Of a stretch of DNA of 64,000 nucleotides, positions 16,958 to 19,058 are shown in pieces; the first letter of the stretch is position 1; the number at the start of each line of letters is the position of its first letter. Origin of the DNA: a bacterium (GTDB lineage Bacteria > Pseudomonadota > Alphaproteobacteria > Caulobacterales > Hyphomonadaceae); NCBI GenBank assembly GCA_016125045.1, contig WGML01000006.1, positions 186,001 to 250,000 of the forward strand. The letters are read 5' to 3'. The notes beneath the pieces are model-generated. The model searched no databases and was not told the DNA's origin. It saw only the letters and a program-made list of their open reading frames with translations. A program made the translations under genes and the position numbers.

Positions 16958-17386
16958 CTACCCACCGGTTGCTCCGAGAAACACCTGCGACGCGATGACA
17001 AGAATGGCGGCGTAGCCCGATGTGAACAGCAACGGGCGCAGCGGCATTCGAGCAACGGCCGTGATCATTCCGACTGCGTGCGCGATCCTGATCACAACGA
17101 AGGCGATCGCGGCCCATCGCGTTGCGTCGTTGGAAACGCCGACGAGATGCGCAGTCAGAACGACCACCGCAAACGGCAGGAACTGCTCCAGCAGGTTCTG
17201 GTGGGCCCGGAAGCTCCGGGCGATCCACGGCTTCATCTTGAGCGGATCGGGAGGGCTGACGAAAACGTTTGGCGCACCTTGTGCGGCAGGCGTGATGTTC
17301 ACGCCCACGATGTACGGAATCCACAGGCTCGCAGCTAGCACAGCACCCAGCATCAGGCAGAAGAGTTCGATCGTCATGTTGGCCAC
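16958..17386 (-). CDS. MAPEG-family membrane protein
   Basis: 142 residues with four hydrophobic helices. The block WIARSFRAHQNLLEQFLPFAVVVL (about 54-77) contains the conserved RAxxAHxNxxE-like MAPEG signature. The family includes glutathione-dependent microsomal enzymes and many bacterial proteins without assigned substrate. The gene starts eight bases after the stop of the ArsR/SRPBCC regulator, so it is in that operon and should be controlled by the same promoter. That context suggests a role in a stress or lipophile response, but this is inference. Confidence 0.85.
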   Translation of the reverse strand: MANMTIELFCLMLGAVLAASLWIPYIVGVNITPAAQGAPNVFVSPPDPLKMKPWIARSFRAHQNLLEQFLPFAVVVLTAHLVGVSNDATRWAAIAFVVIRIAHAVGMITAVARMPLRPLLFTSGYAAILVIASQVFLGATGG

Positions 17387-17394
17387 CTATCGCT

Positions 17395-18159
17395 TCAATC
17401 GGCTTGCAGTCGAAGAGGTTCGCCCGTTTCGAGCATGGTCTTGAGATTGGAGATGATCTTGGCCCAACCTTCACGCACGCCTTCTTGTTCCGGCGGGATA
17501 TCGAAGTGGAGAACCGTGAGGCGGCAGGCTTCCCCCACGGCTTCAATCTCATAGACGCAACGGCTCGGCTTTGCGTCGGGGCCCGCCCAGCCGGGAACGA
17601 AGGTGAGCTCAAGCCTCTTCGGCTCAACCGCGTCGATGACTTCGCCCGAAAGAATGCTGGCTCCATTTGGAAGCACGTGCCGATACCGGCCGCCTGGAGT
17701 AAACTCCCCCTGAATTCCGCCGGCGAGGATGTTGTAGCGCGCTGAAATCGCCTCGGTTGTGAGCGCCTGCCACAGCAATTCCGGGGTGGTGCGGATGTAC
17801 GTCTCAAGCACAAAATCCGGCTTTTCTAATAGTTTGGTGGGCATCTGAGGTTCTCCTTCCAGCTTGGCTTTCAGATTAAGCGCCACCCTCGCCATCGGCT
17901 TCTGCACGACGGGCTCGATCCAACGATCGATTACCTGCTGAAGAGGAGCAGCGTTCAGATAGTGGTACCGGAAGCGGCCGACCTTGCGGCTGACGACGAG
18001 TGACGACGCTTCCAGGATTTTCAGGTGTTTCATCACGCCGAAACGGGTCATCCCCAGGCCGCTTTCAAGTTCAGTGAGGGTCTGCCCGTCACGCTCGCGC
18101 AGGGCGTCGATGAGGGTGCGGCGGGTTCCATCGCTGAGCGCCTTGAAGATCAAATCCAT
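17395..18159 (-). CDS. ArsR-type repressor fused to an SRPBCC/AHSA1 domain
   Basis: 254 residues from ATG 18159 (MDLIFKALSDGTRRTLIDAL), which is where related ArsR proteins begin. In-frame starts at 18180 and 18189 exist, but they lie within or upstream of the promoter found here. Residues 1-85 are a winged helix (LTELESGLGMTRFGVMKHLKILEASSLV). I see no Cys pair for metal sensing. Residues about 115-250 form an SRPBCC/AHSA1 domain (FVLETYIRTTPELLWQALT, FTPGGRYRH, VLHFDIPPEQEGVREGWAKII), a fold with a hydrophobic ligand cavity. It probably represses its own operon with the MAPEG gene and responds to a small lipophilic ligand; the ligand is unknown. Confidence 0.88.
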   Translation of the reverse strand: MDLIFKALSDGTRRTLIDALRERDGQTLTELESGLGMTRFGVMKHLKILEASSLVVSRKVGRFRYHYLNAAPLQQVIDRWIEPVVQKPMARVALNLKAKLEGEPQMPTKLLEKPDFVLETYIRTTPELLWQALTTEAISARYNILAGGIQGEFTPGGRYRHVLPNGASILSGEVIDAVEPKRLELTFVPGWAGPDAKPSRCVYEIEAVGEACRLTVLHFDIPPEQEGVREGWAKIISNLKTMLETGEPLRLQAD

Positions 18160-18166
18160 GATCTCG

Positions 18167-18196
18167 CTTATAGGTGACATATAGGTCACGTGTCAA
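18167..18196 (-). promoter_or_regulatory. Promoter of the ArsR/SRPBCC-MAPEG operon
   Basis: On the minus strand, TTGACA (18191-18196) and TATAAG (18167-18172) are 18 bases apart: a perfect -35 and a good -10. The -10 ends seven bases before the A of ATG 18159, so the transcript should start at or next to the start codon, giving a leaderless mRNA. Confidence 0.75.
18174..18189. promoter_or_regulatory. Perfect palindrome between -35 and -10: probable ArsR self-operator
   Basis: GTGAC-N6-GTCAC fills the promoter spacer almost exactly. A further AGGTGAC/GTCACCT pair flanks it (18172-18178 and 18201-18207). A repressor bound here would block RNA polymerase, as expected for ArsR autoregulation. 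Confidence 0.7.
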
Positions 18197-18311
18197 CATG
18201 GTCACCTGTGAAACGACCTCGTGGCCCGACTCGCACCGCGTTTCCTGACGACTGGCGGTTGTCCGCGCCGTCGAGACAGGCGAAACAGGGTCAAGCCACA
18301 CGGACACACTC

Positions 18312-19058
18312 ATGACCGACACCCCCCAAGACGCGCCTCCCGAAGCCCAGCTGGAAATCCGGATCATCCCGGTGACGCCGCTGCAGCAGAACTGCTCGCT
18401 GATCTGGGATCGCGAGACGAAGCACGCCGCCTTCGTCGATCCGGGCGGCGACATTGACCAGCTGATGAAGGCGCTCGAGCATTTCGGGCTGACGCTGAAG
18501 CATATCTGGCTCACGCACGGCCATCTTGATCACGCAGGAGCCGCCCAGGCCCTGAAGGAGCGCACCGGCGCGCCGATCGAGGGACCGCACCGCGATGATC
18601 AGTGGCTGCTCGACGCGATCGAGGAACAGGGCGCGAAATACGGCATCACGGACGGCCGCAACTGCACGCCCGACCGCTACCTCGAAGACGGCGACACGCT
18701 TGAGCTCGAGGGCGTGACGTTCGGCGTGGCCCACTGCCCCGGTCATACGCCCGGCCATGTGGTGATCCACAACGCGGCGGCGCAAATCGCGTTTGTCGGC
18801 GATGTGTTGTTCGCCGGATCGATCGGCCGGACGGACTTTCCGCGCGGCAACCATCAACAGCTGATCGACTCGATCACCGGAAAGCTCTGGCCGCTCGGCG
18901 AGGACATGCGCTTCGTACCGGGCCATGGGCCGATGAGCACGTTCGGACAGGAACGCAAGTCCAATCCGTTCGTGGCAGACAGGATTACGGGCTTTGGGGG
19001 CGCAGCAGCGGAAGCGGCGGATCAGCTGGCGCAGAGGCTTTCAAAGCGCTGGAGCTGA
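18312..19058 (+). CDS. MBL-fold hydrolase, YcbL/glyoxalase-II-like
   Basis: 248 residues. The metal-binding motif THGHLDHAG gives His69, His71, Asp73 and His74; later ligands are His145/His149 in CPGHTPGH, Asp164 in FVGDVLF and the late VPGHGP. FAGSIGRTDFPRGN is typical of the YcbL subgroup, small metallo-hydrolases related to glyoxalase II and usually annotated as hydroxyacylglutathione-hydrolase-like. A glyoxalase role is possible but unproven. It is cytoplasmic. It is divergent from the ArsR gene and ends three bases from the convergent CAP gene. Confidence 0.9.
   Translation: MTDTPQDAPPEAQLEIRIIPVTPLQQNCSLIWDRETKHAAFVDPGGDIDQLMKALEHFGLTLKHIWLTHGHLDHAGAAQALKERTGAPIEGPHRDDQWLLDAIEEQGAKYGITDGRNCTPDRYLEDGDTLELEGVTFGVAHCPGHTPGHVVIHNAAAQIAFVGDVLFAGSIGRTDFPRGNHQQLIDSITGKLWPLGEDMRFVPGHGPMSTFGQERKSNPFVADRITGFGGAAAEAADQLAQRLSKRWS

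Follow-up and report, generated by a model that had tools for sequence, protein, structure and literature searches.

Predicted autorepression of an ArsR-SRPBCC gene from a conserved, apparently leaderless promoter-operator cassette, with evidence for a recognition code

We analysed a 64,000-nucleotide stretch of a Hyphomonadaceae genome (the window), in which a minus-strand unit encodes a repressor that fuses an ArsR winged helix to an SRPBCC domain (P0001), followed by a MAPEG-family membrane protein (P0002). The locus is of a known kind, the ArsR autorepressors, and its wider interest lies in a phylum-crossing, apparently leaderless cassette and in the evidence for a recognition code. We are highly confident in a reading in which a sigma-70-type promoter gives a leaderless mRNA for both proteins and the repressor shuts off its own synthesis through operator O1, and probably O2, until a ligand releases it. 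A repressor dimer would occupy O1 between the -35 and -10, where the half-site centres lie 11 bp (one helical turn) apart, and probably O2 as well, covering the -35, and the bound protein would keep RNA polymerase off the promoter. The position of the operators suggests repression rather than activation. Release by a ligand in the SRPBCC domain, which would raise expression of the second gene, is the least certain step.

Organisation of the unit and its proteins

The minus-strand sequence of the window up to the repressor start reads AGGTGACCATGTTGACACGTGACCTATATGTCACCTATAAGCGAGATC-ATG. The first-pass annotation had described TTGACA, an 18-base spacer and TATAAG ahead of the gene, a -10 ending seven bases before ATG 18159, and a perfect GTGAC-N6-GTCAC palindrome taking up nearly the whole spacer; all of this is correct on the minus strand, O1 accounting for 16 of the 18 spacer bases (Table 1). 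An automatic scan of the window did not list this promoter, because the scan demands a T at the end of the -10, which here is G.

Table 1. Coordinates of the promoter, predicted operators and genes of the unit, numbered from the first base of the window.
Feature	Position	Strand	Basis
Predicted operator O1, GTGAC-CTATAT-GTCAC, perfect palindrome	18174..18189	-	exact sequence and conservation in homologues
Predicted operator O2, GTGAC-CATGTT-GACAC, one mismatch	18190..18205	-	sequence and conservation within the clade
-35 hexamer TTGACA	18191..18196	-	sequence; TTG[AT]CA in 41/50 palindrome-bearing homologues
Promoter spacer, 18 nt	18190-18173	-	sequence
-10 hexamer TATAAG	18167..18172	-	sequence; TATNNT-like at equal distance in homologues
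7-base gap CGAGATC, -10 to ATG	18166-18160	-	sequence
Predicted transcription start region	18159..18162	-	inferred from the -10 position
ArsR-SRPBCC repressor gene (P0001), 254 aa	17395..18159	-	HTH_20 and AHSA1; ATG 18159 start
MAPEG-family membrane protein gene (P0002), 139 aa, second gene	16958..17377	-	PF01124

The second palindrome, O2, was missed in the first pass; it adjoins O1 exactly and overlaps the -35. An abutting O2 matches at 9-10 of 10 bases in the window, L033-L036, L039-L041 and L065 and was recognised by eye in L037, L038, L066 and L261, while in other lineages only 2-6 of the 10 bases at this position match. In several Rhodobacterales the -35 is TTGTCA, which completes the O2 palindrome, whereas in the window, with its TTGACA, the palindrome stays imperfect; promoter and operator seem to be traded off against each other here. 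With 16 bp, or roughly one and a half turns, between the centres of O1 and O2, two dimers would occupy different faces of the DNA. Of the "simple autorepression" proposed earlier, the autorepression stands on the conservation of the palindrome described below, and "simple" is lost to this second, abutting operator.

The earlier assignments of an ArsR helix-turn-helix (HTH; PF12840), an SRPBCC domain (PF08327, AHSA1) and a MAPEG protein (PF01124) were all reproduced by Pfam. P0001 has an ArsR-type HTH, with 35.4 bits for HTH_20 (cut-off 27) and 56 bits for NF033788 (cut-off 55), and scores 49 bits with PF08327. P0002 scores 78.7 bits with PF01124 (cut-off 23.4) and is assigned to MAPEG by this profile; R57, A58, H59, N61, E64, R97, H100 and R114 are invariant in seven homologues, and an alternative in-frame GTG start at 17386 is possible. 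The AlphaFold2 model of P0001 has a pLDDT of 86.9 and a pTM of 0.60, which leaves the relative placement of the domains unsure. It puts the predicted recognition helix at residues 39-51 (R39 F40 G41 V42 M43 K44 H45 L46) and the predicted SRPBCC fold at about 116-245, and the best Foldseek matches are AHSA1/SRPBCC structures (E 1e-8), in keeping with an AHSA1 helix-grip fold. Stand-alone bacterial AHSA1/SRPBCC proteins (PDB 3q63, 4fpw, 8es5) and Aha1 have the fold of the C-terminal domain but carry no repressor fusion, and nothing in the analysis points to Hsp90 activation. That the sensor has no cysteine pair for metals, as first claimed, is borne out: the HTH is free of cysteine, Cys 201 and Cys 212 belong to the SRPBCC domain, and 27 homologues share no invariant cysteine. 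The conserved Cys/His ligands of metal-sensing ArsR/SmtB proteins were not found in the HTH or dimer helices, and the invariant H45 sits in the recognition helix.

Conservation of the cassette and alternative explanations

The exact O1-type palindrome occurs at two places in the 2.96-Mb genome, about the expectation for 10 fixed bases, and the window holds four matches with at most one mismatch against 2.05 expected. Rarity was rejected as evidence, since by itself the palindrome is about as frequent as chance predicts in both genome and window, and it is therefore conservation that counts. A regulon beyond the unit's own promoter was also rejected, the sole other exact site in the genome lying within a coding ORF.

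Eighty loci were collected by protein similarity alone and their upstream regions then compared. The shared layout, with small variations, is TTGACA-N-GTGAC-N6-GTCAC-N-TATNNT-N5-8-start, and it is seen in Rhodobacterales, Hyphomicrobiales, Gammaproteobacteria, Arthrobacter, Acidobacteriota, Thermomicrobiota, Dormibacterota and Cyanobacteriota/Melainabacteria; the palindrome, its spacer position and the gap of 5-8 bases to the start are conserved across Alpha- and Gammaproteobacteria, Actinomycetota, Acidobacteriota, Thermomicrobiota, Dormibacterota and Cyanobacteriota/Melainabacteria. Across every locus gathered in the analysis, a palindrome matching 9-10 of the 10 bases of GTGAC-N6-GTCAC lies within 80 nt of the start in 52 of 56 ArsR genes with the helix R[FY][GA][VI]MK, compared with 1 of 226 with other helices. 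Of 55 homologues, 46 have the full cassette, with a -35, a palindrome-bearing spacer and a -10 whose end falls 4-9 nt ahead of the start; among 317 other ORFs from these loci, one does. These ratios overstate the independent cases, because the control ORFs include some non-genes and about 20 of the 55 homologues are close Arthrobacter relatives; the spread over phyla is unaffected. The inverted repeat expected for dimeric ArsR/SmtB binding is thus present and conserved, and the survey of homologous operons proposed in the first pass, where loss of the palindrome was to count against the idea, finds both the palindrome and its place in the spacer kept. Judged from these sequence comparisons, the cassette counts and the conserved palindrome make autorepression by the ArsR-SRPBCC protein at its own promoter, and a leaderless mRNA for its gene, well supported predictions. 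A class-wide scan for the exact cassette string found only the window, because the exact string is too strict for finding members. Five Bacillota loci (L068, L071, L072, L083 and L084) retain the palindrome, as GTGAC or GTTAC, with longer leaders, some of them with Shine-Dalgarno-like motifs; at L064, from Chloroflexota, the leader is longer as well.

These relatives with leaders, together with a frame that is open to GTG 18189 in the window, would fit an autorepressor with an ordinary leader, in which the mRNA starts upstream or translation begins at ATG 18180 or GTG 18189 and the short gap is a coincidence. We think this improbable: the -10-to-start distance of 5-8 nt is kept across phyla, and no Shine-Dalgarno-like motif was found before 18159, 18180 or 18189. 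Moreover, an in-frame stop separates operator and ATG in 25 of 50 homologues, which means that neither upstream codon is a conserved start, and all 27 aligned homologues begin at the methionine of MDLIFKAL, the family start rightly chosen in the first pass, or no more than a few residues away from it. The kept distance instead supports the leaderless mRNA that had been predicted, for which the candidate +1 bases are A 18159, the A of the ATG, and A 18162, giving no leader or one of at most 3 nt. It is more improbable still that the palindrome is fortuitous or serves another regulator; its frequency alone is that of chance, but it is kept in place, it varies with the ArsR recognition helix from locus to locus, and the divergent neighbour gene is not conserved.

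The role of the SRPBCC domain is less firmly placed. It is possible, though we lean against it, that this domain acts as an effector under regulation, such as a binding or sequestering protein, and was fused by chance to an ArsR part answering something else or nothing. In many relatives the SRPBCC part is indeed a protein of its own, with its gene immediately behind that of ArsR, and CalU16 and DynU16, which come from enediyne clusters, are among the Foldseek matches. Covalent fusion in many lineages, however, suggests a regulatory link, and the HTH offers no cysteine or obvious metal site. The gene order of the unfused relatives also indicates that the ArsR and SRPBCC parts belong together. 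In our reading the SRPBCC domain is the proposed ligand-binding part of the repressor. The sequence itself shows the promoter, the operators, how well they are conserved and how helix and half-site covary; from this we infer the transcription start, the binding, the repression and, least certainly, control by a ligand.

Covariation of recognition helix and half-site

In ArsR relatives with other helices, the palindromes near the starts keep the 5-N6-5 geometry but have different half-sites. Picked by symmetry alone, the pairs of helix and half-site are RQAVSK-GCAAC, RIAVMN-GTAAT, RIAVMK-GTAAC, RCTVMQ-GTTAT, RQSVSK-GCAGC, LAAISK-TCAAC, QPGVSK-ATAAC, LPSFMK-TTAGC, QPAVSQ-ATAAG and RPAVAK-GAAAC. 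Rules linking helix residues to bases were fixed in writing before further genomes were fetched, a few of the held-out genomes having appeared in earlier searches. Among 33 held-out sites, 22 had bases 1, 4 and 5 all predicted correctly (11% on average under permutation, maximum 33-35%), as had 15 of 26 once duplicate helix-site pairs were removed; per-base accuracy was 0.77 against 0.42 permuted, a value that none of 5000 permutations reached. A rule-free mutual-information Z over 70 columns, computed on pooled training and held-out sites with each of 84 clusters at 70% identity contributing one site, was highest for h1 (base 1), h2 (bases 2 and 3), h3 (base 4) and h6 (base 5); other alignment columns score as well, as shared descent would give. 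A phylogenetic independent-pairs sign test yielded one or two supported pairs, the HTH tree being too poorly resolved for it.

We consider it reasonably probable that the ArsR-SRPBCC family shares a recognition code together with a Shine-Dalgarno-free, leaderless promoter-operator unit of about 45 bp. The letters of the code would be, at h1, R for G, Q for A and an aliphatic residue for T; at h3, S for G and A or G for A; and at h6, K for C, N for T and Q for G or T. In P0001 the half-site bases G1, T2/G3, A4 and C5 would be specified by R39, F40, G41 and K44, respectively. Recognition-helix residues 1, 2 and 6 are classic base-reading positions (PMC5045206), and the code is legible because each gene carries an operator at its own promoter. 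The codes of LacI (PMC2978694) and MerR (PMC5045206) were likewise read from helix/operator covariation under local or auto-regulation, in families other than ArsR. No earlier description of an ArsR recognition code, this cassette or an ArsR-SRPBCC operator was found among the openly accessible papers searched, one of which (PMC8222616) cites Kazakov 2013 on ArsR in Desulfovibrionales.

NolR (PDB 4OMY, 4OMZ, 4ON0) shares the ArsR winged helix, and its operator ATTAG-N6-CTAAT has the same register as GTGAC-N6-GTCAC; unlike P0001, it is a 118-residue chain lacking an SRPBCC domain, acts as a global symbiosis regulator and differs in helix residues and half-site. Its published consensus is (A/T)TTAG-N9-A(T/A), with Gln56 contacting the A/T (PMC8960804). 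In the alignment its helix reads Q56 S57 A58 L59 S60 Q61 H62, with Q56 as h1, and the rules give A-x-x-A-G, which agrees with the published operator, the base contacted by Gln56 being base 1. A held-out gene with the helix QSAISQ (L311) carries ATTAG-N6-CTAAT. The helix of HlyU, QSALSQ, has the residues of NolR, and its footprinted 17-bp site (PMC4330345) has no clear fit to the rules. As external checks NolR therefore speaks for the code and HlyU is undecided; Brucella ArsR6 was dropped, as the passages on it gave no operator sequence. The SdpR-type ArsR autorepressors (NF033789) resemble P0001 in their HTH and presumed autorepression, but P0001 falls outside that family at 47 bits (cut-off 100) and carries the SRPBCC fusion.

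If the code holds, operators of many uncharacterised regulators could be predicted from protein sequence and matched repressor-promoter pairs could be read off directly; operators seem to have been described for few ArsR-SRPBCC regulators. A leaderless unit of this size with no need of a Shine-Dalgarno site could help function across phyla, and the conserved cassette is a natural choice for testing regulated, leaderless expression across them.

Several helices gave separate observations. L300 and L302 pair LPSFVE, with a Glu at position 6 that lies outside the rules, with the half-site TTAGG. In the RCTVMQ or RTTVMQ group (L009, L013, L019-L021, L030, L031, L194, L196-L198, L233 and L266-L268), ATGTTAT-N6-ATAACAT mostly runs into the start codon, so that operator, -10 and ATG would overlap. 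Short ArsR genes of Bacillota with the helix RQAIAK (L143, L145) have GCAAC-N6-GTTGC just before a TATAAT or TATACT some 6-8 nt from the ATG, possibly a leaderless Bacillota version.

Neighbouring genes and spread

A divergent gene for a metallo-beta-lactamase-fold hydrolase-like protein (18312-19058, plus strand) starts 106 bases from O2; its control by O1/O2 was rejected, as the gene adjoins no homologue. The MAPEG gene follows the repressor in the window, L033-L037, L041 and L261 only, an alphaproteobacterial clade, and in no other lineage among the loci. The idea that the unit senses a lipophilic compound stays a guess because its MAPEG neighbour is so limited. AAGGAG-like motifs precede the MAPEG gene in several loci, unlike the first gene. 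In the gammaproteobacterial homologues L053, L060, L079 and L081 the next gene encodes DUF899 (Pfam-confirmed in L053 and L079), and in some plasmid-borne relatives a GFA-family protein or an F420 reductase; nearly full-length relatives occur in 31 plasmid records. A tree built from the fused proteins places the window with Rhodobacterales (100). In it the Arthrobacter sequences all join a single sequence from an alphaproteobacterium, L054 (100); this would be compatible with transfer but does not prove it, since L054 comes from a metagenome bin.
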